Shown piece by piece: positions 3,333-54,624 of a stretch of DNA of 64,000 nucleotides; the first letter of the stretch is position 1, and each line of letters begins with the position of its first letter. This DNA comes from Prostheceraeus crozeri (lineage: Eukaryota; Platyhelminthes; Polycladida; Euryleptidae), in assembly GCA_907163375.1 (NCBI GenBank), contig CAJQUW010001420.1:1279930-1343929 (forward strand), given 5' to 3'. The notes under the pieces were generated by a model. The model was given only the letters and a program-made list of their open reading frames with translations. It searched no databases and was not told the origin of the DNA. The position numbers were made by a program, and so were the translations under genes.

Positions 3333-5052
3333 AATGATAATCATAATGCTTTATTGAAACCAAAATATAGAGCGGTACATGGTTATGACTGCAAAGTCAT
3401 GTAAACTGTGAAAATCTGACAAAGGAGTTGGCGTAATAAGATGGTTTCCGCAGAGGAGTTGTCAGTTGCCTTTGATGTCTAACTTTGCTGATATGTTGAC
3501 GGACGTTGAAAAAGGAGGACAGGCGATGAGTATCACGATGATGAGACACTTTGCGGATGAGTTTATCGCAAACACGATCTAACACTTGTCTTAGGGATGG
3601 CTTGTTGTACATGCTGCACCAACGTTTGGCCAAACGATCCAGACGTTCAAATGTACAAAAGTGTTTCATCTTCATATCACATACAATGGGCCAACAAAAT
3701 GATAAACGAGAAAAAACAAGACCCATGTATCCCTGCCACACAACATGATCTTCATACATGATCTTCATTACAATTGATCTTCAGATGCCTTACAATGGAC
3801 ATAATACTACAGAATTTTTTGTATAAAAACGAGACATGAGAGTGCCATGTCAAATTAGCACTAAAGAAAACACCGAGGATTTTCAAATTTACAACTTCCT
3901 CTATGACTTCATCATTGACAACATTATTAGTACACCTGGTGGGATCAAAACGCTTAGAAAGAGTCATACATTTGGTTTTATCCACATTTATTGTCATTTT
4001 TTGGGCTACCCAATTACAAAAGGCGTCAACGTCCTCTTGAAAAAGATCATTACTGGTGTTGCCATTGGATAAGTGAATGAGGGTTATATCGTCAGCATAC
4101 GAAATAACCTTCGTGTTAGCGAACTGTGGGACATCATTAATCATGACAACAAAAAGTAGAGGTCCTAACACAGAGCGCTGAGGCACCCCACTGGTCACCT
4201 CTCCCCAAGGTGTGGAAATGCTATTAACGTAAACACCTTGAAAACGATTTGACAAAAAGCTTTGTATGAGATTCACTACAAGGGGATTGGAAGGGAAAAG
4301 GGTTCCAAGACTTTGGAGCAAGGTGAGGTGACTGAGTGAATCGAAAGCCTTATTGAAATCAATGGCAAGGAGTCGACAAAAGTTTGAGGGGCTGCTAGCG
4401 ATGTGTTGAAGGGAAGTGAGACGAATGTTCAGAAGGCATTAGTACAACCACCATTATCACCTGGGATGAAACCGAACTGTCGGCGATCGAATTTGCCTTG
4501 TAGGGAAGGTAGAAGAATAAGATCTCGAATCAATTTCTCAAGACATTTGCTCAAGAAGGGCAAAATGGAAATGGGACGATGAGCACATGAATCCTTCTTA
4601 GGGAGCGGGAGAACATTCGCTTTCTTCCAGATATCGGGAAAGATGTTGGCTTGAAGGCATAGATTAAAAATCCTTGTGATAGGGGAAGCACGTCAATGAA
4701 GGAGCGAAAGAAGATGCCAGAAACACCATCTGGTCCAGTAGAGTTAGACTTGGTGTTCTTCACCATGGTAGTGACTTGTGATTCCTCAACTATCGGGAAA
4801 GAATGATCCTCACACAGAAGATTATCATTATCGAAAAGGGAAATATCAGAAGCAAGAAAATTGGACTTGAAAGTGTCATTGATTTCAAGAGCTAATTTTT
4901 CATCGAGTTTTCTGCTTTGATTCCTCCGAATTTGTGAGTTGATGAGTTTCCAGCTATCCGAATTGGACGATCCAGCAGTAAGATTACATAAGTAACGTCG
5001 CTTAGCTTTGTAAGACTCCTCAAGAAACTTCTCCCTCAAGTGCAAGTACTTA
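3333..5052 (-). pseudogene. CR1/Jockey-type LINE 'AC', 3' part: broken reverse transcriptase
   Basis: Minus-strand remnant of a non-LTR retrotransposon ORF2. A linker (LREKFLEESYKAKRR), RT motif 0 (STGPDGVSGIFF), a region around 4330-4450 reading like the QFGF...DFNKAFD block, then GVPQRSVLGPLLF and the catalytic YADD (about 4105-4090) are followed by the thumb and C-terminus ending near 3397. A frameshift lies near 3760, and others must lie between 4321 and 4551. In GVPQRS, an R replaces the usual G. The 3' tail at 3333-3355 is ATT-rich. The 5' continuation is the fragment at 8296-8726: the encoded protein stops at ...KALSRG there and resumes at KYLHLREKF here, because element B is inserted between. 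Confidence 0.85.
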
Positions 5053-8000
5053 ATAATAATAATAATAAATAATAATAATAATGCTTTATTCGTCAATACA
5101 AAAGCGGTATGACATGCATGAGTACAAGACAGATTTCACGTGAATTTTGAAAATTTTACAAAGCTCTTGTTATACAGTGCTGAATTTCTGCGAAAAGGCA
5201 GCAATACAAGATGGTTTCGAACAATACGGGAGCTATTGCGCACTTCAAAAAATTTTGACAGCGGATGCTTGACAACATTGTTGCTAATCCTTTTGACAAG
5301 TTTAATACAGCTACGATCAAGCACTTCACGAAGTGAAGGCCGATCACGACTATTGGACCAATGCACTGCTAATTTATACAATCTTTCAAGCTTCTGAAAA
5401 TGTTTGGCACTGATGTCACGGATGACCGGCCAACTAAAGTGGATGTGACAAAGTACAAAACTTTCAAAGGCTTTCCAGACAACTGTACCGGTGTTCCTAT
5501 TAACACGTAAACGGCGAACAAGTGACATAGCTTTACAGCAGCGACGATATAGTACAGAAAAGTGAGTGTCCCAATGCAAGTCAGAAGAGAAATGAACTCC
5601 AAGGATCTTGGTGCAGTTTACTTGAGAGATAGATATACCATCCAACATGATGTCAGTCATTGGGGGAAGATTAGCGGAGCGGGAGAGGGTCATGCACTTG
5701 CATTTGTCTACATTAATGGCAAGATTTTTGCTGTCCGCCCAGGAGGAGAACAAACGAAAGTCATCAGGTAAACTTGAGATGTCACCATGCGAGTTAAAGG
5801 ACAACATAGTTACATCATCAGCGTAAACAACAGTGTCAGTATTTACAAATTCAGGAATGTCATCAATAAACAAGGAAAACAAAAGTGGTCCCAAAATGGA
5901 ACCTTGTGGGACTCCACTAGAGATGGGGCACCACACAGACACAACATCATTCGATACAACACGCTGGAAACGATCAGACAGAAAATTATGTATGAAATTA
6001 GCAGCAAGGGGAGAAGAGTGAAAGTGATCGCGAAGGGTTTCAGGGAAGCTTGCAGTGGCTGACAGTGTCAAAAGCTTTTCTAAGGTCAATGGCAATGAGG
6101 GAAACATAGTTATCAGAGTGAGCGGAAATGTGTTGTAGGATGGAGAGCCTAATTGCAATCAAAGCGTTGGTAAAACCACCAAAGCTATTGGGCAAGAAGC
6201 CAAACTGCCTTTGGTGAATGCTTCGGCTCAGTCCGGGGAGAAGGATTTTGTCACGAATCAACCTTTCTTACACCTTGCTGGGAAAAGGGAGTATAGATAT
6301 TGGACGAAAATCATCGCTGTCTTTCTTGCGAAGGGGAAGAATGTTGGCGTACTTCCAAGGACGCGGGAAAAAGCCAGTTTGGATGCACTTGTTGTATAGA
6401 AAAGCTAGAGGACATGCTAGCAGATCAGCAAAGGTTCTATAAAACAAACCAGGGATGCCATCTGGCCCAGGCGAATTTGATTTTCATCTCCTGATCATTT
6501 GAGCGACACAGGCTTCAGAAACAGACAAATCATCTGATGAATGAGTGACATCATCAGACGCTGAAAATTGGTGAATATCAGGAGGAGCAAAAGTACTATA
6601 AAATTTGTCATTGAGTGAGTTGACTTCACTAGCGTCAAGACTGGGAGGAGCCGAATGTTTTCCTAACTGAGAGTTAATGGATTTCCAAGTTTCTTTCGGA
6701 GAAGAGTGATTGTAGGAGAAATAACGTGACCTTGACTTGGCTAATTCAGAAGTGAATTTTTCACGAAGACTAAGGAATTTACCATAATTACCTCTGCTAA
6801 GGGCGCGATCTGTGGCATCAGACAGGGCTTTAAGGGAGGGAGTTAACCAAGGAGGGTCTGAGCTACGCATGCGGACAGTCTTCTCGGGGAAAAAGGTGTG
6901 ATAGAGGAACAGGAAAAATGCCTGTAGCTGGTCAGTTAGGACATCTATGTCATCAATATATAGAAAGGATTCATACCAGTCAACTGAAGAAAGAACTTCA
7001 CAGCATTGCGCAAAAGACGCATGAGTGCAACAGCGAAATTTGACTTTGGTGATAGTGGGAGGGCATGATTGGGAAGGCTTGACAAGAATATCTCGGTGAT
7101 CAGATCTACATAAAGGAGACAGAAAAACAGGAGGTGCAAAATACTGAGGCTGACTAGACAATATATCAAGAACATTATTGCCTCTTGTAGGCAAGTGAGT
7201 CAATTGTGACAAATTATTACACGTTAGAAACTCATCAAAAACGTGACGTAAGTCATTAACATCCCCTACGATAACATTATGACCACAAGTAGAGCTATCA
7301 ACAAAATTCTGCAAAGAGGCTAACAAAATGTCATGCGCCTTAACTTTACCGCAGTAAGGGTGATAAATGACACACAGATTCAGATCAAAATCGCTAATCG
7401 AACAGACTAGGAGATTCGATTTGATGCTATCAATGAAACTGTTACTCACAATAGAGACACAAAAATTGGATCTGTGGTATATTGCTACACCACCTCCTCT
7501 GAAGTCCCGATCTTGTCGAAGGATTTTGTAGCCTGGTATTGAGAGGGAAGCGTTGTGTGAGCGGAGAGTGGGGGACGTTGTGTTATTCAGCCATGTCTCT
7601 GTGATGCAAATCAAGTCAGGGTTCGATTCATAGACTCTGATCTTGAGATCGTCAACCTTGTTAAACAGGGATCGGCATTAAACAAAAGGATCGAGGGAAC
7701 GGCTGTTGGGGAACGTTTTGGTTGACGAAGTTTCACAGACACTGAAGGATTGCGTAATAGGATTGAAGGGGAGTCTCGTGCACAGTGGTCGCGTGAGGGA
7801 GCGGCAAGGTCCGGTAAATTTGGTCGACACCAGTTAGGGAGAAGCAGACGATGGAACCAAAGCACTCTCCGAGTCTTACGCAAGATTGGGTAATCATGTC
7901 GAAGGTTCAGCAGGTCCGCACGAGAGTATTGCAGCCGAGATGACATCCGAGAGGGAGAGACCAAGGAAATGTAACAGGCAGGCAGCAGGAATGCGATGAT

Positions 8001-8295
8001 GGGGATGAGACAAGAAAGTAAGCGTGGAACATTGCGTGCAGTTGAATAAGTCATCGGTAAAAAAATGAATTTTGAAGTTGAGTTGTAATCCGCAAGTCTT
8101 TGATGAAAATAAATTGCATAGCGATGTTGTCCAACCGTAGAGAAAAAGAATGATATAAAAATTGTCAGAGAACGATACCAGAAAGTGGTCAAGATTCACG
8201 TAAAATCGAATTGCACACGCGGAAACTGAACAGGGCGCCTGTAGACACAACCGTCTGCTACGAAGTCCGATGATGTTCGACCATATGTTTAATCA
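5052..8295 (-). mobile_element. CR1/Jockey-type LINE 'B', nested inside LINE AC
   Basis: About 3.2 kb, minus strand, with a 3' tail of ATT repeats at 5052-5085 that abuts the AC fragment. It carries one APE endonuclease/reverse transcriptase frame (5136-7690) and roughly 600 bp of 5' sequence (7691-8295) in which I do not recognise an ORF1. It belongs to the same family as AC (matching 3'-end sequence, protein homology throughout) but is clearly diverged from it. No clear target duplication could be read at its borders. Confidence 0.8.
5136..7690 (-). pseudogene. APE endonuclease / reverse transcriptase ORF2 of LINE B, three disabling changes
   Basis: The frame opens with the classic Jockey-superfamily start RSLFNKVDDLKIRV...NPDLICITETWL (about 7680-7590). 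RGGGVAIYHR (endonuclease), LPTRGNNVLDI and CRSDHRDI follow. After the linker come RT motif 0 (SPGPDGIPGLFY), RPISILPFPSKV, RQFGF, LIAIDLRKAFDTV (motif A), SGVPQGSILGPLLF (motif B), VVYADDVTML (motif C, about 5830) and a C-terminal end at 5136. I see three lesions: an in-frame TGA at 6484-6486, a TAA near 6268-6270 and a frameshift near 6045-6055. Apart from these the reading is continuous, so the copy is dead but not very old. Such proteins nick the target and copy the element RNA into DNA at the nick. Confidence 0.88.
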
Positions 8296-22569: not shown

Positions 22570-22582
22570 GATATCCGAAAAA

Positions 22583-24306
22583 TGTATTCTATAAATCACG
22601 TGGTTACAATCTGCAACGAAGAAAAGGTTATTTAAATAATACGCATAAACAATTAAACAATAGGTATTGTTAGTTAAATATCTTTAAGAAATAAGAGCTA
22701 CCATTATAACCTAATGTTCGGTTAAGCAATGGATTGCTACTAAAAATTTTTATAGATTCAACAATGCTAATCTCAAAGTTCGAGTTTCCACGGTAAATGA
22801 TTTTAAAGCAATCATTATAGTTACGAAAACAATGGTTACATTGTTCTATGTGTTGTGCAATGGCACTATTGCCACTTAAGTGTTCAAGTTTACGTTGATG
22901 CAGACGTCTTTTGGTTTTGCCAATATATTGGCAATCAGGATCAACCTGACATTGAAAGCAATAGACAAGACGCGATTGCATGTCTGGACCTAACTTACTT
23001 TTAAGGGAGAAATATCTTCCAGTTTTGAACGAGGTCATAACAACCTTGCATTCCAAGTTAAGTTTACGAAATATTTTTACTAACTTATTACTAAATTTCT
23101 GTGATGCATAACCCACGAAGGGGATTTTGATTATTTTATTGAAGTCATTATCAATTGTAACGCGTGAAGAATTGTTTAATTTACGACCTATAAATTTGTT
23201 AATTGTTGATTGAATTAATTGCAATGGATAGCCATTTCTACTCGTACTTAAGATATTGGTAATTTTATTACATTCATTATGGAATAGATTCCAATTGGTG
23301 GATACATTGTAAGCACGATGAAGCATGCCTAATACTAGTGTGTTTTTCCAATTGCGAGGACATAAAGCATTGAAATTCAGTAAAAGACCTGTAAAGGTAG
23401 GTTTACGATAAATCTCAGTAAGTATATTGTCCTCATCAATTTTCAGAAGGACATCTAGAAACGGTAATTCTTTATTGCCCACTTCTGATGTAAAGTGCAA
23501 GTTACTGTGTTGAATGTTTAGAAAATTATGGAATACATCTATGTGTTGTTCATTGTTAAATACAGCTATGATATCATCCACATAACGACGATACACAACA
23601 GGAGAGAAAGGTAAGTCCTGCCATTTATGTTCTAGATTAGCTAAGAAGACGTTAGCAAGGGTTGGACCCAACGGGCTACCCATACTTACACCATCCACCT
23701 GTTGGTATACAGTATCATTCATAAGAAAGCAACCAGACGTGGCAAATTTTAATAAGTCTTTAAATACTTTTTCTTCGTACTTCGGTTTATTGGCATTACT
23801 AGGTGAGTACACTAATTTAGTTGCAATGTTGATTGCTTCAGTTACGGGTACGTTGGTAAATAAGTTTTCGACGTCAAAGCTCACAAGGGTGCTATGACGG
23901 TTTATTTTATGTTTAACATCATCTAATACACTAATGAAATCATTAGTTGATTTCAACATAAGGTCATCATTGATATGTGGTTTAATTAAATTGTCTAAGT
24001 ATTTAGCTAATTTATAATTAGCAGCACCAATAGTACTAACTATCGGTCGAACAGGGTAATTGTTCTTATGTACTTTTACGGTACCATAGATACGTGCAAT
24101 GTTACTACCAGAAGGCAGTATGTCCTTATAAACGCTGTCATCAACTTTATTTTTTACATATTTATTGAGATAGCGAGATAATTTATTTTCCTCGATACAA
24201 ACAGGATGTTTTTTAATATCATTAGGTACAGGAATTATTTTAAATTTAGAAGAATCACTCAATATCGCATTAAGTTTATGATTATAGTCATCAGTATCTA
24301 CAAGCA
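22583..24306 (-). pseudogene. Penelope-like copy P1, inverted and 5'-truncated
   Basis: The minus-strand frame (ATG at 24262, stop at 22670) encodes the last 530 residues of the protein made by the complete copy: RT with YVDD and the GIY-YIG end. The copy starts inside the codon corresponding to residue 275. It also lacks the last 33-34 nt of the 3' end (TTGACTGAGTATATC...) that both direct copies have. Asn replaces Asp in RGNS(N/D)FEIS. Without the N-terminal region and leader it is presumably inactive. Confidence 0.9.
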
Positions 24307-26077
24307 GGTCAAGGTATCGTGCTTGTAGATACTGATGACTATAATCATAAACTTAATGCGATATTGAGTGATTCTTCTAAATTTAAAATAATTCCTGTAC
24401 CTAATGATATTAAAAAACATCCTGTTTGTATCGAGGAAAATAAATTATCTCGCTATCTCAATAAATATGTAAAAAATAAAGTTGATGACAGCGTTTATAA
24501 GGACATACTGCCTTCTGGTAGTAACATTGCACGTATCTATGGTACCGTAAAAGTACATAAGAACAATTACCCTGTTCGACCGATAGTTAGTACTATTGGT
24601 GCTGCTAATTATAAATTAGCTAAATACTTAGACAATTTAATTAAACCACATATCAATGATGACCTTATGTTGAAATCAACTAATGATTTCATTAGTGTAT
24701 TAGATGATGTTAAACATAAAATAAACCGTCATAGCACCCTTGTGAGCTTTGACGTCGAAAACTTATTTACCAACGTACCCGTAACTGAAGCAATCAACAT
24801 TGCAACTAAATTAGTGTACTCACCTAGTAATGCCAATAAACCGAAGTACGAAGAAAAAGTATTTAAAGACTTATTAAAATTTGCCACGTCTGGTTGCTTT
24901 CTTATGAATGATACTGTATACCAACAGGTGGATGGTGTAAGTATGGGTAGCCCGTTGGGTCCAACCCTTGCTAACGTCTTCTTAGCTAATCTAGAACATA
25001 AATGGCAGGACTTACCTTTCTCTCCTGTTGTGTATCGTCGTTATGTGGATGATATCATAGCTGTATTTAACAATGAACAACACATAGATGTATTCCATAA
25101 TTTTCTAAACATTCAACACAGTAACTTGCACTTTACATCAGAAGTGGGCAATAAAGAATTACCGTTTCTAGATGTCCTTCTGAAAATTGATGAGGACAAT
25201 ATACTTACTGAGATTTATCGTAAACCTACCTTTACAGGTCTTTTACTGAATTTCAATGCTTTATGTCCTCGCAATTGGAAAAACACACTAGTATTAGGCA
25301 TGCTTCATCGTGCTTACAATGTATCCACCAATTGGAATCTATTCCATAATGAATGTAATAAAATTACCAATATCTTAAGTACGAGTAGAAATGGCTATCC
25401 ATTGCAATTAATTCAATCAACAATTAACAAATTTATAGGTCGTAAATTAAACAATTCTTCACGCGTTACAATTGATAATGACTTCAATAAAATAATCAAA
25501 ATCCCCTTCGTGGGTTATGCATCACAGAAATTTAGTAATAAGTTAGTAAAAATATTTCGTAAACTTAACTTGGAATGCAAGGTTGTTATGACCTCGTTCA
25601 AAACTGGAAGATATTTCTCCCTTAAAAGTAAGTTAGGTCCAGACATGCAATCGCGTCTTGTCTATTGCTTTCAATGTCAGGTTGATCCTGATTGCCAATA
25701 TATTGGCAAAACCAAAAGACGTCTGCATCAACGTAAACTTGAACACTTAAGTGGCAATAGTGCCATTGCACAACACATAGAACAATGTAACCATTGTTTT
25801 CGTAACTATAATGATTGCTTTAAAATCATTTACCGTGGAAACTCGGACTTTGAGATTAGCATTGTTGAATCTATAAAAATTTTTAGTAGCAATCCATTGC
25901 TTAACCGAACATTAGGTTATAATGGTAGCTCTTATTTCTTAAAGATATTTAACTAACAATACCTATTGTTTAATTGTTTATGCGTAGTATTTAAATAACC
26001 TTTTCTTCGTTGCAGATTGTAACCACGTGATTTATAGAATACATTGACTGAGTATATCTCCACCGTCTAAACATTCG
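24306..26077 (+). pseudogene. Penelope-like copy P2, direct and 5'-truncated
   Basis: Begins at the codon for residue 271 of the complete protein and stays open to the stop at 25956. The 3' UTR runs to 26077 (CTAAACATTCG), where copy P3 begins without a gap. The one nucleotide difference noticed in the 3' UTR is GTAGTATTT here against GTATTATTT in P1 and P3. It is the partial tandem copy upstream of the complete unit, equivalent to the 'pseudo-LTR' of other Penelope-like elements. Confidence 0.9.
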
Positions 26078-26349
26078 TTGTCTTGTGCGTGGTCTTCACT
26101 GCTACATTTTACTGGGTTGTGTAACATAGCATCATAGAACTCTTGTTGCTGGCCGAGCTCCTGTGGCTCCGTGTCATACCGCTGTACTGTTTTGTATTTA
26201 CAAGTTTGGTTAAGCGGCTTACCGTAACTCACCTGCTGATCTTACCTACACTGTAAGTTATTTTACCTCGTATGTTGTCGACTTCATCTTCATACTACTG
26301 TATTGATTTTACTTAATTTTTGCATAATTTCCTACCGCACGTTAACCTA

Positions 26350-26412
26350 ACTTTAGTGGCTCTGATGAAGATTGTTGGTAACAATCGAAAGACGTCTCAG
26401 CAAAATCAAGTG
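26350..26412 (+). ncRNA. Hammerhead-ribozyme-like motif in the P3 leader
   Basis: CTGATGA (26362-26368) is followed by a perfect 7-bp hairpin GATTGTT-GGT-AACAATC (26370-26386), then GAAA (26387-26390), the self-complementary AGACGTCT (26390-26397) and C. GCT just before the core can pair with AGC just after it (stem I), with further TTT/AAA pairing possible. This is the type I hammerhead layout with a stem III that could only form between two molecules or units. One extra A (26369) separates the core from stem II, a departure from the canonical form. Hammerhead motifs are known in Penelope-like elements. Predicted cleavage would be after C26398. Not proven active. Confidence 0.5.
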
Positions 26413-26443
26413 TTTTCTATCTTGTTAATGTACTTACCTAACT

Positions 26444-28903
26444 ATGAGTCTATACTCACTAGTCATTTGTTGTATACTGTGGTTTGTAAAAAGTAGTAAT
26501 CTTGCTGATCTATACTTTAGAATAAGTAATCACTTTAATGTATCTGTGAATGATCTCCGAAAACTGGAAAAATGCATTCTCAAAGTCAAAAAATTACAAT
26601 TGGATATCACCTATTTCAATGATTGTGATATTCTTCACTTGTGTCCTAAATTTCTTCTCACTAAACCTAAACTTAAACCAATTAGTGATGATGTTGATGA
26701 ATTCAACAAATTAGCCATCACATCGCATATAAAATTCTTAAATAAAAAATTGAAACACAATAAATTTAAACTCCAAAAGCTTACCAGTCACATTTCGAGT
26801 CAATTATCGTGGTTTCGTATTCTCACGTTAAAATTGGCTATTTACAAACATGTCAATAACTCTCTCCTACAAGTAAAAGAATCTCATCGTAGTAAATTAA
26901 GTAAACTTTGGCTTGAACAAAGGACTGCAACCCCGGATTGCATCATTAACCTTAGTAGCCATTCACTCTCTCTGTTTGAACGTGAAGCATTACGGTATGG
27001 TTTAAAAAATCCTATTGCTCCTAGACACCTTGATTTAGATAAAATGAAATATGAACTAGAAAAATCAATTTGTGGCGTACCACGCAATGATCCTAACTGG
27101 ACCAAAGAAATAAAATTAGATATAATACACTCACTGAAGGAATTCGAAGATAACTGCAATGACACTTTGAAAAGTAAACGTAACCGTATGTTACACATGA
27201 CTTTAAATAGACTATCTAAGATTCGTAACTTAAAGATTTGTTCTTTTGATAAAGGTCAAGGTATCGTGCTTGTAGATACTGATGACTATAATCATAAACT
27301 TAATGCGATATTGAGTGATTCTTCTAAATTTAAAATAATTCCTGTACCTAATGATATTAAAAAACATCCTGTTTGTATCGAGGAAAATAAATTATCTCGC
27401 TATCTCAATAAATATGTAAAAAATAAAGTTGATGACAGCGTTTATAAGGACATACTGCCTTCTGGTAGTAACATTGCACGTATCTATGGTACCGTAAAAG
27501 TACATAAGAACAATTACCCTGTTCGACCGATAGTTAGTACTATTGGTGCTGCTAATTATAAATTAGCTAAATACTTAGACAATTTAATTAAACCACATAT
27601 CAATGATGACCTTATGTTGAAATCAACTAATGATTTCATTAGTGTATTAGATGATGTTAAACATAAAATAAACCGTCATAGCACCCTTGTGAGCTTTGAC
27701 GTCGAAAACTTATTTACCAACGTACCCGTAACTGAAGCAATCAACATTGCAACTAAATTAGTGTACTCACCTAGTAATGCCAATAAACCGAAGTACGAAG
27801 AAAAAGTATTTAAAGACTTATTAAAATTTGCCACGTCTGGTTGCTTTCTTATGAATGATACTGTATACCAACAGGTGGATGGTGTAAGTATGGGTAGCCC
27901 GTTGGGTCCAACCCTTGCTAACGTCTTCTTAGCTAATCTAGAACATAAATGGCAGGACTTACCTTTCTCTCCTGTTGTGTATCGTCGTTATGTGGATGAT
28001 ATCATAGCTGTATTTAACAATGAACAACACATAGATGTATTCCATAATTTTCTAAACATTCAACACAGTAACTTGCACTTTACATCAGAAGTGGGCAATA
28101 AAGAATTACCGTTTCTAGATGTCCTTCTGAAAATTGATGAGGACAATATACTTACTGAGATTTATCGTAAACCTACCTTTACAGGTCTTTTACTGAATTT
28201 CAATGCTTTATGTCCTCGCAATTGGAAAAACACACTAGTATTAGGCATGCTTCATCGTGCTTACAATGTATCCACCAATTGGAATCTATTCCATAATGAA
28301 TGTAATAAAATTACCAATATCTTAAGTACGAGTAGAAATGGCTATCCATTGCAATTAATTCAATCAACAATTAACAAATTTATAGGTCGTAAATTAAACA
28401 ATTCTTCACGCGTTACAATTGATAATGACTTCAATAAAATAATCAAAATCCCCTTCGTGGGTTATGCATCACAGAAATTTAGTAATAAGTTAGTAAAAAT
28501 ATTTCGTAAACTTAACTTGGAATGCAAGGTTGTTATGACCTCGTTCAAAACTGGAAGATATTTCTCCCTTAAAAGTAAGTTAGGTCCAGACATGCAATCG
28601 CGTCTTGTCTATTGCTTTCAATGTCAGGTTGATCCTGATTGCCAATATATTGGCAAAACCAAAAGACGTCTGCATCAACGTAAACTTGAACACTTAAGTG
28701 GCAATAGTGCCATTGCACAACACATAGAACAATGTAACCATTGTTTTCGTAACTATAATGATTGCTTTAAAATCATTTACCGTGGAAACTCGGACTTTGA
28801 GATTAGCATTGTTGAATCTATAAAAATTTTTAGTAGCAATCCATTGCTTAACCGAACATTAGGTTATAATGGTAGCTCTTATTTCTTAAAGATATTTAAC
28901 TAA
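26444..28903 (+). CDS. Penelope-like reverse transcriptase with C-terminal GIY-YIG endonuclease
   Basis: Intact 819-residue ORF; an in-frame TAA lies just upstream of the ATG. The N-terminal ~250 residues are basic and of unknown fold. RT blocks follow: GQGIVLVDTDDY (271-282), KVHKNNYPVRPIVS, VSFDVENLFTNVPV (motif A, about 418), QVDGVSMGSPLGPTLAN (motif B), RRYVDDIIAVF (catalytic YVDD 516-519), LPFLDVLLKI, EIYRKPTFTG. The endonuclease begins VYCFQC (722) with the Cys-rich insert CFQCQVDPDC, then YIGKTKRRLHQRKLEH (YIG 735-737) and IAQHIEQCNHC. Proteins of this type cut the target and prime reverse transcription on it. RT and endonuclease hallmark motifs are all present, and near-identical partner copies point to recent activity. 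The layout (C-terminal endonuclease) fits Penelope/Poseidon-type elements. Confidence 0.95.
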   Translation: MSLYSLVICCILWFVKSSNLADLYFRISNHFNVSVNDLRKLEKCILKVKKLQLDITYFNDCDILHLCPKFLLTKPKLKPISDDVDEFNKLAITSHIKFLNKKLKHNKFKLQKLTSHISSQLSWFRILTLKLAIYKHVNNSLLQVKESHRSKLSKLWLEQRTATPDCIINLSSHSLSLFEREALRYGLKNPIAPRHLDLDKMKYELEKSICGVPRNDPNWTKEIKLDIIHSLKEFEDNCNDTLKSKRNRMLHMTLNRLSKIRNLKICSFDKGQGIVLVDTDDYNHKLNAILSDSSKFKIIPVPNDIKKHPVCIEENKLSRYLNKYVKNKVDDSVYKDILPSGSNIARIYGTVKVHKNNYPVRPIVSTIGAANYKLAKYLDNLIKPHINDDLMLKSTNDFISVLDDVKHKINRHSTLVSFDVENLFTNVPVTEAINIATKLVYSPSNANKPKYEEKVFKDLLKFATSGCFLMNDTVYQQVDGVSMGSPLGPTLANVFLANLEHKWQDLPFSPVVYRRYVDDIIAVFNNEQHIDVFHNFLNIQHSNLHFTSEVGNKELPFLDVLLKIDEDNILTEIYRKPTFTGLLLNFNALCPRNWKNTLVLGMLHRAYNVSTNWNLFHNECNKITNILSTSRNGYPLQLIQSTINKFIGRKLNNSSRVTIDNDFNKIIKIPFVGYASQKFSNKLVKIFRKLNLECKVVMTSFKTGRYFSLKSKLGPDMQSRLVYCFQCQVDPDCQYIGKTKRRLHQRKLEHLSGNSAIAQHIEQCNHCFRNYNDCFKIIYRGNSDFEISIVESIKIFSSNPLLNRTLGYNGSSYFLKIFN

Positions 28904-29036
28904 CAATACCTATTGTTTAATTGTTTATGCGTATTATTTAAATAACCTTTTCTTCGTTGCAGATTGTAACCACGTGATTTATAGAATACATTGACTGAGT
29001 ATATCTCCACCGTCTAAACATTCGATATCCGAAAAA

Positions 29037-29786: not shown

Positions 29787-30233
29787 GTGACATGTCACGC
29801 TCAATCACGGTACGCGTAATTCACGCGTAAACTACGCGTAATTACACATGACCCTAAACATCTGTGGCTATGCGTGACATTGCTGCAACATCTGTCGGCA
29901 GTCCTATTATATAGACTTTGCGTCTCATGTGTCTGCATGTATCAGAGGTTAGGTCTCAATTTCATGCTCAGGGAAGACAGAACATATATGTACTTAGCGG
30001 TTCATCCGTGGTTCAAGCGGCGACGAAGACAACCGAAGACGACGCGCAAACTATAAACGCTCGCCCGCGCGTATTCATAAACATTCCCCATGTTTTAGCA
30101 GCATCAGATCAAGTGATTTATTCTGACTCTTACTGCAGCTCATATGTACGCGCGTAGAAGAATAGAATGTCTTTATAACCACGGATGTTTGGAGTGTTCC
30201 GTAATTACGCGTGAATTACGCGTGGCATGTCAC
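29787..30233 (+). mobile_element. CTAG-targeting MITE, copy 1
   Basis: Starts GTGACATGTCACGC and ends GCGTGGCATGTCAC, flanked by CTAG on both sides (29783-29786, 30234-30237). Homologous over its length to 39748-40168 (inverted) and 59071-59518. Near both ends ACGCGT/ACGCGTAATT is repeated (TACGCGTAATTCACGCGT on the left). Interior landmarks are GACTTTGCGTCTCATGTGTC and CGCTCGCCCGCGCG. No ORF of transposase type. Confidence 0.88.
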
Positions 30234-30241
30234 CTAGCTTC

Positions 30242-31577: not shown

Positions 31578-32985
31578 AATAATAATAATAAAGCGTATAT
31601 ATTTCAGATATAAATGAAAATCGTACAAAGAAAGACAAAGTTACACAAAGTCAGATAGGTGTACTAGTATGTATTACTCATCGTCTAGTGAAATTACGAT
31701 TATACAATTTGCAAACGTATGGAATGAATGAACGACTTCTCTTCATAGTGCGCCTTCTTGGCAGCAAAAATCGACCAGAGTCTGATAATGTTGGCAAAAG
31801 ATAATGAATGACATGACCAGGTTTCATTACTTGTTTCATGAACTTCAAACTCAAATTATCTCGACGCATGGAAAGAGTTGGCAAATTATGATCACAGTCA
31901 CATATGTCTCCACATATCAATCTGTGAAATCGATTTTGTACCCTGTCAAAACGATTTGAATCTCTCTTCGATAAGCCAACAAAGACAGGAGCACAATATT
32001 CGAGCAAGGAGCGTACAAGCGAGAAGTATGCCAAACGTAATGCTGATGAACTTAGGGAGCGGCGTAGCTTTCTCAGGATATAGAATCTTCGAGATGCTTT
32101 GAGCAAGACATGATTGCAATGGGAGGACCATGTACTAGAGGAATCGAACCATACACCAAGAATTGACATTTCAGTTACTGAAGCTACATCAGGTGGGGAG
32201 TAATTGCCACATTCATTTGATTTCTTGATTATCAGAGACTTGCACTTCCGCTGATTGAGAGTGAGATCCATTTCCTTTGACCACCGTAAAAGCCCTGCAT
32301 GCTCGCTAGAGACGTGTAGATTTTCTGAGTCTTTGAATAGCGGGAAGCAAAGATTTATGTCATCGGCATAAATCACTAGGTGGCATTTCGAATCGTTGAT
32401 ATCTAAAGAAGACGTTGCTAATGCATAGAGATATGGGCCTAATATTGATCCTTGAGGAATCCCGGAAGTCACAGATGCTTGCCTACTACAGGAGGAGCCA
32501 ATTCTGACAAATTGTGAGCGGTCTTTTAGGTAGTCATGAATCCATCTGATAAACGCATTTGGAAAATTGCAGTGCTTCATCCTGTTCAATATGTGCTCAA
32601 ATTTTAAACTATCGAAGTCACAATCGAAATATCGAAGAAACAATCATGACACCAACTGTTCTTTGATCATCAAGATAGCGCGTCAAGTGATCATGCAGTG
32701 AAACCAGTGCACATGTGGTTGACGATGATGGTCGAAACCCAAACTGATGCTTATGATAGTACTCCAGAATTCTCTCCTTCATTGAGTTAAGGACAATGGT
32801 TTCAAGTAGCTTCGATGGCAAAGGGAGGACACTTATAGGTCGGAGATCGTCTAACGTCGGCTTCGAGGTTTTAGGAACCGGTGTGATTGCGGCGGTTTTC
32901 CATAAGATTGGGACTTCACAGTTTTTCAAGGATAAACGAAAAAGTTCACATAGAGGCTTGGAGATCTTACGGTACTAGCCATTAT
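31578..32985 (-). pseudogene. 5'-truncated LINE with frameshifted reverse transcriptase
   Basis: The minus strand, with an ATT-repeat 3' tail at 31578-31592, encodes VPILWKTAAITPVPKTSKP, LRPISVLPLPSKLLE and HQFGFRPSSSTTCAL. After a shift near 32630 come SVTSGIPQGSILGPYLY, LVIYADDINLCF (catalytic YADD, about 32370) and the thumb LLKASRRFYILRKLRR ... EYCAPVFVGL, with a stop at 31678. The endonuclease and early RT are missing (5' truncation near 32985). It is a Jockey-superfamily LINE, distinct from LINEs B and AC, and lies next to the CACCCC end of the preceding element. Confidence 0.85.
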
Positions 32986-39743: not shown

Positions 39744-39747
39744 CTAG

Positions 39748-40168
39748 GTGACATGCCACGCGTAATTCACGCGTAATTACGGAACACTCCAAACATCCGT
39801 GGTTATAAAGACATTCTATTCTTCTACGCGCGTACATATGAGCTGCACTAAGAGTCAGAATAAATCACTTGATCTGATGCTGTTAAAACATGGGGAATGT
39901 TTATGAATACGCGCGGGCGAGCGTTTATAGTTTGCGCGTCGTCTTCGGTTGTCTTCGTCGCCGCTTGAACCACTAAGATGAACCGCTAAGTATATGTTCT
40001 GTCTTCCCTGAGCATGAAATTGAGATCTTATCACATTGTTTAGCCTCTGATACATGCAGACACATGAGACGCAAAGTCTATATAATAGGACTGCCGACCG
40101 ATGTTGCAGCAATGTCACGCATAGCCACAGATGTTCAGGGTCATATGTAATTACGCGTGGCATGTCAC
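39748..40168 (-). mobile_element. CTAG-targeting MITE, copy 2 (inverted)
   Basis: Starts GTGACATGCCACGCG and ends CGCGTGGCATGTCAC, with CTAG at 39744-39747 and 40169-40172. In opposite orientation to copies 1 and 3. The empty target would have read ACACTAGTGA. Confidence 0.9.
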
Positions 40169-52015: not shown

Positions 52016-52640
52016 TAACTGATGCAAGGCCACACATCGCTTTTCTACGGATATATGTGCCAACTGAAATATATGCTGAACAATAACTAAGTCTTTTGTT
52101 GAATAGATAGTAGGCCTATATTGAGCCGATTCTCAGCAGATCATAATTAGCGTTGATCTGACGAGATGAAATGGTTTGCTAGAAACTAAAGCAATCAGCA
52201 AGAATGACCGAAATACATCATGCATGCAAGCGATATGGATGCCGTCTAAACTTGTCGGAATACAATTGTAGTAAGTAAGTCGAACTGAAGAAGAAATAAG
52301 AATTATCCATTATCTGCAAAATTCACGTCTTCATGAAATAAAACTTGTTGAACCTAACAAATTTTGTGATATCATTTTGTGATCAGGACAGTCTGTTTAT
52401 CTTCAACAATAACATCGCCATCACGAAATTTTTTCATGAGAACTCATGAGATTTAATGCGGAGTCATGAGATTCGAAGTGGGACGATAAAGATGGATATA
52501 CAGAAAGTGTAGACGAAAGATGCTGGTCAGATTCATTCCATGTACACGACGTGTGCGAACATTCTCCCCAAACATGACATTGTGATATATACGACGACTT
52601 CAACAACTGAAAAAGATGACGAAGAAGAATGTGGAGAAGT
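52016..52640. other. No recognisable gene
   Basis: Ordinary sequence leading into the purine tract. Confidence 0.4.
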
Positions 52641-53255
52641 AGAAGAAAAGGAAGAGGAGAGATGATGAAGAAAAATATTAATGTGGAGAAACAGAAGAAA
52701 AACAAGAGGAAGACGATGAAGAAAAAGAAGAAGCAGAAGAGGAAGCAGAACAAAAAGATGAAGAGGAGAAGAATTTAGAGAAGCAGGAGCAGAAGAAGAA
52801 AAAAGAAAATAAATTATAATAATAATAATAAGAAAAAGAAGAAGAGGAAGAAGAAGAAGAAGGAGAGGAAAAAGAAGAAGACGGAGAGGAAGAAGAAGAA
52901 GAAGAAGGAGAGGAAAAAGAAGAAGACGGAGAGGAAGAAGAAGAAGAATGAGAAGGATAGGAAAAAGAAGAAAAGAAGAAGAAGAGTGAGAAGGAGAAGG
53001 AGAGGAAAAAGAAGAAGAAGAAGAGGGAGAAGGGGAAGAAGGAGAAGGAGAGGAAGAAGAAGAAGGGGTAGAAGAAGAGGCAGAAGAAGAAAAAGGAGAG
53101 GAAAAAGAAGAAGATGAAGAGGGAGAAGGGGAAGAAGGAGAAGGAGAGGAAGAAGAAGAAGGGGTAGAAGAAGAAGCAGAAGAAGAAAAAGGAGATGGAG
53201 AAAAAGAAGATGGAGAAGAAGGAGGAGAAGAAGAAGATGGGACGGAAGAAGTTGA
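52640..53255 (+). repeat. Long GAA/GGA purine-pyrimidine tract
   Basis: About 600 bp in which the plus strand is almost entirely A and G (AGAAGAAGA, GGAGAGGAAAAAGAAG), with a short AAT run at 52816-52830. Internal imperfect repeats of about 65 and 130 bp (GGAGAGGAAAAAGAAG...; GGAAGAAGAAGAAGGGGTAG...) indicate local duplication. Open frames over it (Glu/Lys on plus, Leu/Phe on minus) are composition artefacts. Confidence 0.9.
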
Positions 53256-54027
53256 TTATGGCGACGTGTAAATTTATCCTTCAAGATTCTCTTGTGTGGG
53301 AAACCATCTCCATGGATGTGAATGGAGAGAGAATGGCAATGTCTCCGCGGCTCTGCATTATTTGGATTCCTCTTCCTCTATGTATTCAGATTGCTTCATG
53401 TTTGACTTTTAGCATCTATTGTGAGCATTGAAACTCTCGTCGGTTGCTTTCTCATCTCAATAAAAATCATCAATCATAGAAGCACGCTGAATATAGACAA
53501 CGAGACACAGTCACACATTATTAAACTGATATATATGCTATATCTACACATGTTTTCTACTGTTTCATCAATAAATGAAGACGTGTCTGTTTCATTTTCA
53601 ACGGCAGTCTCTAAGCCAACAGATGCATTTTTCCTTACTGCTATGGTAGAGGTGTTGTTCATAACGTTTTAACGTTTTAACGTTTTAGAGCTGGCATGCT
53701 TCTCTGCATCTTTTAGACTGCATTAGTCTTTGGATAAATACACATTTCAAACTCTTCCAATATTATCCTGTGTCAGACGGCAGTTGAAGACAGTGGAAGA
53801 CATCTACATTACACAGTCTATGGTTGAAGTTGACCATCAACTTTGTTTATCAAGATTTCTCATTTCTCAACTGTATCCTGTGTGCTGACATTATGTGGAA
53901 ATTTTGAATTTTCTAAATAGCTTCAATAAGACACGCATTTAAGTCCAAACTTATTTCACTTTTACAACCAGTTTAACGCAGAAAAATTATCTTTTAATGT
54001 CAATCTGATCGCCGATACAAGTAGAAT
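53256..54027. other. No recognisable gene; upstream of the secreted-protein gene
   Basis: Probable 5' flank of the gene at 54028. ACGTTTT is repeated three times at 53661-53687. No promoter element was singled out. Confidence 0.4.
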
Positions 54028-54624
54028 ATGCTATTACTCAATATCCTATTTTTGTTAATTTCAATCAAATGGATTTACATCGAGGAAGCATTTGGATTGA
54101 AATTTGTTGAAATGAAAGATAGAGGATTCTCTCTCAGGATTAGCAAGGTAATATCAAATGTAGCATCTACTGAAGAATGCATGTTGACATGTAAATTGAC
54201 ACCATTTTGCGTGGGATTCTTTTTTTTTGCAAATAAATGCGCATTTCAATTTGAGACAAGAGAAAACATAATGATGTACAGAAATCTGGGAAAGAAGAAG
54301 TCCAGTCATTCTGTATTTGGACTTCTATGCGATCCGACAGCAGGATATACTAAGATCAGAGTTGCCTCATTTTCATATGCTCGCTTAGTAAATATAAACA
54401 AAAGATGGAATTGGAATGCAGCCCTTAGAACTTGTCAAAGGATCTGTACTCTTCATCACTGGTGTTTGGCAATTAAATTTGTTATTTATAAAACTGGTAG
54501 CATCATATCCCAGTATAGGTGTTATGAAACATCTCGCCTGCATTTCCATGATGATAATGGCAGAAGTGTCACATATAAAAAACGTTGTCATAGAGAAGAA
54601 ACCAATCAATGCGTTTCACCTTAG
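54028..54624 (+). CDS. Secreted protein with two PAN/apple-like cysteine modules
   Basis: A 198-residue single-exon frame. Residues 1-23 (MLLLNILFLLISIKWIYIEEAFG) form a signal peptide. Two modules share one spacing: C51-x3-C55-x5-C61-x9-C71 and C136-x3-C140-x5-C146-x18-C165, each preceded by a short aliphatic/aromatic strand. Further cysteines are C101, C187 and C195. STEECMLTCKLTPFCVGFFF is close to the PAN/apple core (S-x-x-E-C-x-x-x-C-x-x-x-x-x-C-x-x-F-x-F). PAN domains are extracellular disulphide-bonded folds that bind proteins or sugars. No transmembrane anchor follows. An in-frame stop ends it at 54624, and downstream sequence has no close AATAAA; one lies near 55320. It is also possible that a longer spliced gene uses this as an exon. 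No relation to neighbouring elements. Confidence 0.5.
   Translation: MLLLNILFLLISIKWIYIEEAFGLKFVEMKDRGFSLRISKVISNVASTEECMLTCKLTPFCVGFFFFANKCAFQFETRENIMMYRNLGKKKSSHSVFGLLCDPTAGYTKIRVASFSYARLVNINKRWNWNAALRTCQRICTLHHWCLAIKFVIYKTGSIISQYRCYETSRLHFHDDNGRSVTYKKRCHREETNQCVSP

Follow-up and report, generated by a model that had tools for sequence, protein, structure and literature searches.

The 64,000-nt stretch of the Prostheceraeus crozeri genome analyzed here (positions 1,279,930 to 1,343,929 of contig CAJQUW010001420.1; hereafter, the window) carries three copies of a Penelope-like element (PLE), P1, P2, and P3, the first two arranged as a palindrome and the last two as a tandem. We propose, with a probability of roughly 0.75, that the complex stems from one insertion of an endonuclease-bearing PLE by dual target-primed reverse transcription, i.e., with cDNAs primed from both cut strands of the target. 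A survey of the same genome indicates that such a palindrome is a usual product of this PLE family, not an assembly foldback, and that the window locus is an ordinary member of the series. At least 32 loci of one closely related family make a countable rule of what were an optional tail and occasional palindromes, both loosely described, speak against self-priming in its simple form, and allow the use of the ribozyme in vivo to be tested at the level of single nucleotides.

Architecture of the window locus

Positions within the element are given as unit coordinates (u = window position - 26078; P3 = u0-u2946), and the features of the locus are collected in Table 1. As the first-pass annotation of this DNA had reported, a perfect 13-bp target site duplication (TSD), GATATCCGAAAAA, encloses the three copies; it is present exactly twice in the window, where its reverse complement has no occurrence. 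The inverted arms (22581-24306 and 24320-26045) lie 13 nt apart, and the AA at 22581-22582 is common to the TSD and the element, 22583 being an equally valid arm start. Alignment of the three copies, suggested earlier as a check, bears out their near-identity, with one or two differences per pair: two mismatches between P1 and P2 (22780/25846 and 22639/25987), one between P2 and P3 (25987/28934), and one between P1 and P3 (22780/28793). The spacer is identical to 27254-27266 of P3, and A24306 can be assigned to either arm, which amounts to a 1-nt microhomology at the P1/P2 junction; P2 therefore reaches 13 to 14 nt beyond P1. P2 does run head-to-tail into a complete P3, with the small correction that the tandem period is 2947 nt and T26078 stands between the copies. 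Both outer boundaries are 3' ends of the element, and P1 alone lacks the 3' tail of about 34 nt; the tailed arm measures 4719 nt and the tailless arm 1726 nt. Bracketing of P1, P2, and P3 by one 13-bp TSD supports the single insertion event originally claimed.

Table 1. Features of the PLE complex in the window
Feature	Position	Strand	Unit coordinates	Remarks
Left TSD copy	22570..22582	+		GATATCCGAAAAA, 13 bp; terminal AA common to element; exact-occurrence search
P1	22583..24306	-	u2912 down to u1189	Inverted, tailless, 5'-truncated; inverted-repeat comparison
Palindrome spacer	24307..24319	+		13 nt; belongs to P2 sequence
P2	24306..26077	+	u1175-2946	5'-truncated direct copy; pseudo-long terminal repeat (pseudo-LTR) of the tandem; tail 26044-26077
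P3	26078..29024	+	u0-u2946	Complete unit; tail 28991-29024 (u2913-2946) is the right outer end
Predicted minimal hammerhead-like ribozyme	26359..26401	+	Predicted cut u320/u321	Predicted cut 26398/26399
Open reading frame (ORF)	26444..28903	+		819 aa; reverse transcriptase (RT) with putative C-terminal YIG-type endonuclease region; in P3
Right TSD copy	29024..29036	+		First G doubles as u2946

Identity of the element

The 819-codon ORF of P3 contains an RVT_1 domain (E 2.8e-13), and a comparison with 7,992 scored candidates yielded 345 relatives with E values no higher than 0.001. All of the 120 relatives listed are named hypothetical protein, some of them with PF01541 (GIY-YIG); a single entry stands at 99% identity, and the next full-length ones follow at 48%. 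PF01541 found no match in the query protein at an E setting of 10, at which filters discard most matches above 0.1. The YIGKTKR region of the query aligns with three PF01541-bearing relatives that are 41 to 43% identical. We judged the PLE type, as opposed to other RT types, from the anatomy of the element: the partial tandem P2-P3 creates a pseudo-LTR, and some ends carry a tail within the 30 to 40 nt typical of PLEs (34 nt, one per insertion in all 23 insertions discussed below). These traits and the RVT_1 domain support the Penelope-like identity first proposed. LINE-1 was considered and rejected, as there is no poly(A) ahead of the right TSD and the unit has a single long RT frame.

The palindrome as a family product

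A search of the same genome (2.05 Gb, 14,165 contigs) with the full ORF yielded 55 scored matches from 33,920 first-look candidates, on 34 contigs. Of these, 33 were examined, C7131 being left out as lying at a contig edge, and C2941 was dropped because it duplicates the locus seen at C10087 (one of the outer flanks matches at 99.5% over 200 nt). The final set holds 32 distinct loci, window locus included, and the match list is a lower bound. For many loci, the sequence retrieved covers the ends and junctions, and the interior is known only as an ORF match. Arm ends were taken from the limits of BLAST alignments and carry an uncertainty of a few nucleotides, as in C1427, with mismatches right at the junction.

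Opposite arms occur in 26 of the 32 loci, always minus-then-plus, i.e., head-to-head, and both outer ends sit at a normal start site in 23. Each of these 23 two-ended insertions combines a tailed with a tailless outer end, by motif-based counts, which are those used throughout; if ends were independently tailed at 50:50, the chance of this outcome would be 1e-7. TSDs of at least 10 bp flank 22 of the 23 (median, 13, counting any letters that the TSD has in common with the element), and C9151 is the sole insertion with no TSD of that length.

The remaining nine loci depart from this pattern. C11694, C13865, and C6094 are single-armed with 10-bp TSDs and are tailless, tailless, and tailed, respectively. 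C11859, also single-armed and tailless, has a weak 8-bp repeat only, offset from the ends, and no TSD was seen in C13669 and C557, both single-armed and tailed. C2375 is tailed, with its second arm curtailed and no TSD; C10358, likewise with no TSD, has a tailless left end and a right end inside the tail at u2931. In C8339, the arms coincide at u489/u490, and neither outer end is at a normal site.

Outer ends determined by walking fall into two discrete ranges, u2932-2947 for tailed and u2909-2920 for tailless ends (44 of 46 ends anchored), which points to two start sites about 32 nt apart. The walk-based tally is 21 tailed, 23 tailless, and 2 unanchored ends, two older ends apparently being mis-sorted; we attribute its mismatch with the motif-based count to tail indels in older copies (C10087 and C9151, by eye). 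The rule of two starts on two strands has no exception in this sample. The tail itself was rightly likened to a known Penelope feature, and what the present survey adds is the count behind the rule. For an Anolis PLE studied in vitro, the tail corresponds to the stretch that separates two sites of RT initiation (PMC11167929). Titles and abstract openings contained no report of the tail rule or of the ribozyme-site pile-up described below, prior publication of either being possible.

Within an insertion, the two opposite arms disagree at 17 of 25,254 sites (0.07%), against 2,858 of 488,557 (0.58%) for arms of different insertions, in a comparison that omitted gapped sites, sites beyond u2904, and sites where units of one arm disagree. 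Overall, rather than locus by locus, this comparison strongly favors templating of both arms by a single source; as in twin priming, a single TSD would then enclose oppositely oriented arms that go back to one RNA source. Together with the 23 two-ended loci and TSDs in 22 of them, this arm identity marks the palindrome as a usual family product. Near-perfect palindromes are a classic artifact, yet, judged from the assembled sequence, an assembly or amplification foldback, or two unrelated adjoining insertions, is highly improbable: the palindromes end where the element ends, a single TSD flanks the whole complex in 22 of 23 insertions (the window locus among them), arms are often unequal in length, and junctions vary between loci. 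Assembly foldback in particular was rejected on account of these flanking TSDs.

Dual priming versus self-copying

In the mechanism that we favor, the element protein would cut the target in a staggered fashion, which would produce a pair of 3' overhangs, each some 13 nt long. Priming from the right-hand overhang would begin at the distal start (u~2944), so that the tail is included, and P3 and then P2 would be copied; priming from the left-hand overhang would begin at the proximal, tailless start (u~2913), and P1 would be copied. One RNA, or RNAs of one source, would template both cDNAs. Both would halt at almost the same position of the template (u1175 and u1189), which is probably the RNA 5' end, and their 3' ends would then be fused by microhomology or alternative end joining, with a 1-nt overlap at the window locus. 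TSD, head-to-head order, tail rule, arm identity, and junction types are read directly from the sequence; cut polarity, step order, use of a single RNA molecule, a protein dimer, and the end-joining pathway are what we infer from them. The protein of the Anolis PLE (PAc), in purified form, cleaves each of the two strands and extends both, starting at two sites that flank the tail, and it is predicted to dimerize (PMC11167929).

The first-pass annotation had considered priming from both cut strands but preferred snap-back because of the tiny spacer. In a snap-back, cDNA from the right-hand nick would copy P3 and P2, fold on its own 3' end, and copy itself to produce P1, leaving a 13-nt loop. 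Besides the short spacer and the 1-nt microhomology, the window locus has a tailed arm longer than the tailless one, so the geometry permits self-copying there, and self-priming on an antisense template was proposed for rotifer Penelope palindromes (PMC3846280). However, P1 stops at u2912, the standard tailless start, which is internal in a P3-P2 cDNA and at which a self-copy has no reason to stop. Self-copying requires that the second arm lie wholly within the first. Although arm length at the window locus complies, 11 of the 23 insertions do not, which excludes simple self-copying for them: in C12006, C9995, C9717, C5812, C11273, C2494, C7312, C11286, C13706, C9151, and C4143, the tailless arm extends further upstream than the tailed arm by 18 to 3258 nt and has no tail where the shorter arm carries one. 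Nine of them exceed by at least 99 nt (C12006 by 30 and C4143 by 18), with extremes such as C5812 (2859 nt tailless versus 161 nt tailed) and C2494 (2845 versus 64 nt). Not counted were C728 and C10624, which show the same pattern but are multi-unit loci in which an internal tail could be invoked, and the ribozyme-site pairs C9636 and C11948 (13 to 14 nt). Snap-back is therefore an improbable origin, and the preference for it was not borne out; a snap-back followed by a template switch is conceivable.

Dual priming is the better of the two options, the tailless arm being longer in many insertions. After correction for the 34-nt tail, the further-reaching arm is the tailless one in 15 of the 23 insertions and the tailed one in 6, with 2 equal within 8 nt; that either arm can be longer fits two independent extensions. 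Junctions were displayed for 22 loci, including 20 of the 23 two-ended insertions. Among these 20, 8 show overlaps of 1 to 4 nt (window, 1 nt; C7312, 4 nt), 1 is abutting, and 11 contain fillers of 2 to 28 nt, unexpected from a simple hairpin. C4143, C4349, and C9151 have short fillers too, and in C2077, C9995, C2494, and C11948 the filler repeats the adjacent arm (by eye). The junctions look like alternative end joining of two 3' ends.

Several observations weigh against this interpretation or narrow its reach. The sample is nonrandom, because a full-ORF search favors long copies, and 6 of the 32 loci are single-armed. The own opposite arm is strictly closest in just 8 of 14 insertions with enough overlap; C3752, C11273, and C1427 show own-partner ties, and in C9995, C9636, and C7312 another insertion is closer than the own partner. 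Inner ends do not coincide in 15 of the 23 insertions. The Anolis protein, in its in vitro activity, shows no difference in start sites between top and bottom strands, and a one-each rule is not evident (PMC11167929). Finally, the arms of the window locus and of C13930 end near the same u but differ in length by one and two whole units, respectively, so the two RTs did not start at neighboring sites of one unit. An extra step must be added for both, whether a tandem RNA with several starts, a jump of the RT between templates, or unequal exchange at a later time.

The near-identical tandem units of C10624 suggested rolling-circle copying of an RNA that had been cut by the ribozyme and circularized; these units have one variable site among compared units and one unit without about 140 nt (u2677-2819). 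This reading was not adopted, since the variant-sharing patterns of C13930 are unlike those of one circle and later unequal exchange could homogenize arrays.

Coincident inner ends and a predicted ribozyme

Inner arm ends lie at most 30 nt apart in 8 of the 23 insertions (window, C13930, C12006, C1427, C4143, C9636, C2077, and C11948), against a permutation mean of 1.65 (P 3e-5). The excess persists when insertions with any ribozyme-site end are excluded (5 of 17; mean, 0.82; P 5e-4). The simplest explanation for coincident ends is that both RTs ran to the same template 5' end.

A candidate source of such 5' ends is the predicted ribozyme (Table 1). Its motif comprises stem I (GCU/AGC), CUGAUGA, an extra A, a 7-bp stem II, GAA, and a palindromic, loop-less stem III, AGACGUCU. 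When one additional base is tolerated behind CUGANGA, a motif scan yields this site alone in the unit, and the one cut that it predicts falls before u321; among 2,000 random units, 3 contain the motif and none has a 7-bp stem II. Both stems I and II appear in the minimum free energy fold, and the ribozyme region is no stabler than shuffles (z -0.04). The same scan detected another hammerhead-like motif outside the element, at 1134-1169 of the window, minus strand; it too has CTGATGA followed by an additional base, a stem II of 7 bp, and a predicted cut.

Of the 46 inner arm ends, 21 fall at or below u366, an enrichment that stems in part from ORF-based sampling and is not used as evidence. Nine of these 21 lie within 2 nt of u321, where a uniform distribution predicts 0.29 (binomial, 4e-12). 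The u321 ends involve both arms in C9636, C2077, and C11948 and one arm in C4463, C11286, and C10087; C10358, outside the 23, adds one more. These ends may be the in vivo footprint of the predicted ribozyme. The agreement is not that of a blind prediction, because the cut was worked out by hand once some ends were known and the scan was then set to tolerate the additional base. Certain arms continue past u321 or halt shortly after it (at u294 in both C4349 and C13669), and tandem arms run through; cleavage would thus not be universal. The arms of the window locus end elsewhere.

A less likely but serious alternative is that the pile-up reflects initiation of transcription at u321, or arrest of the RT by structured RNA, rather than cleavage. 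The ends were mapped in genome sequence, the motif has an extra A between CUGAUGA and stem II and a loop-less stem III, and it folds like shuffles. Rfam returned nothing at gathering score for the whole window and two sub-threshold snoRNA matches only for 26000-26500. Core insertions reduced the activity of some other hammerheads (PMC3088659). In the Anolis study, no reads begin or end at the ribozyme cut, and the ribozyme is dispensable in vitro (PMC11167929). Against this alternative stands the single predicted cut, not a blind prediction, right where 9 of the 21 low-lying ends cluster. The start-site region, for its part, folds no better than shuffles (z -0.61).

The broader proposal, that PLE integration is two-sided from two fixed starts and that hammerhead cutting provides the 5' end of much template RNA in vivo, seems to us evenly poised. 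If it holds, symmetric palindromes ending at the hammerhead cut would be a normal product, and the tail would mark which strand used which start site instead of being an optional extra.

In C12006, C9717, and C11859, three arms terminate inward close to u2910-2912, which is itself the tailless start site; these ends perhaps reflect the 5' terminus of an RNA, or an RT halted where an upstream start was already occupied. In C13706 (42296-42752), a u174-u2885 join occurs twice in the plus arm, and C4349 has a similar u173/u2885 join; this join may mark a subfamily.

Comparison with known systems

In LINE-1 twin priming, both nicked strands prime on one RNA, and an inverted 5' part results within one TSD; a minority of LINE-1 insertions take this course, with internal annealing of the second primer. 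In the present family, by contrast, opposite arms are found at 26 of 32 loci, and the distance between the two starts is constant at about 32 nt.

Other PLEs offer parallels as well. Anolis PAc (Penelope/Poseidon type) shares the RT, with a C-terminal endonuclease that is putative in our element, the tandem units, pseudo-LTR, and a hammerhead motif, here a predicted one, as well as a 30- to 40-nt tail between two RT starts and extension of both target strands (PMC11167929). The PAc starts are located 111 to 118 nt inside the ORF and thus downstream of the hammerhead cut, which falls at nucleotide 26 of the ORF (PMC11167929), whereas those of our element lie about 320 to 355 nt upstream of the predicted cut in the next unit; a cut-to-cut RNA would thus carry both starts near its 3' end. 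Penelope elements of the rotifer Adineta vaga also form head-to-head copies with junction palindromes and 8- to 10-bp TSDs, and have an optional 31-bp tail on 'one of the inverted pLTRs' (PMC3846280). Their inverted part is described there as mostly a short pLTR, with self-priming proposed (PMC3846280), unlike the often kilobase-long arms and 13-bp median TSD found here, which dual priming fits better. R2 elements with a hepatitis delta virus-like ribozyme have their RNA processed by a 5' self-cleaving ribozyme, of another type and in another element (PMC3774820).

Other features of the window

Broken LINE-like pieces occupy 3752-8195 (minus strand), with RVT_1 at 3755-4438 and 5139-6158 and Exo_endo_phos, just under the curated cutoff, at 6487-7677. 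A further RVT_1 fragment at 31678-32643 (minus strand) was judged LINE-like. A 230-nt inverted repeat (30008-30237 and 39744-39973; 99% complementary, 9.5 kb apart) possibly represents the ends of another mobile element. Low-complexity short-period repeats with Ser/Pro/Leu/Phe-rich open frames are found at 52533-53377, and an ORF at 54025-54624 with a borderline PAN domain (E 1.9e-4) is perhaps a host exon.

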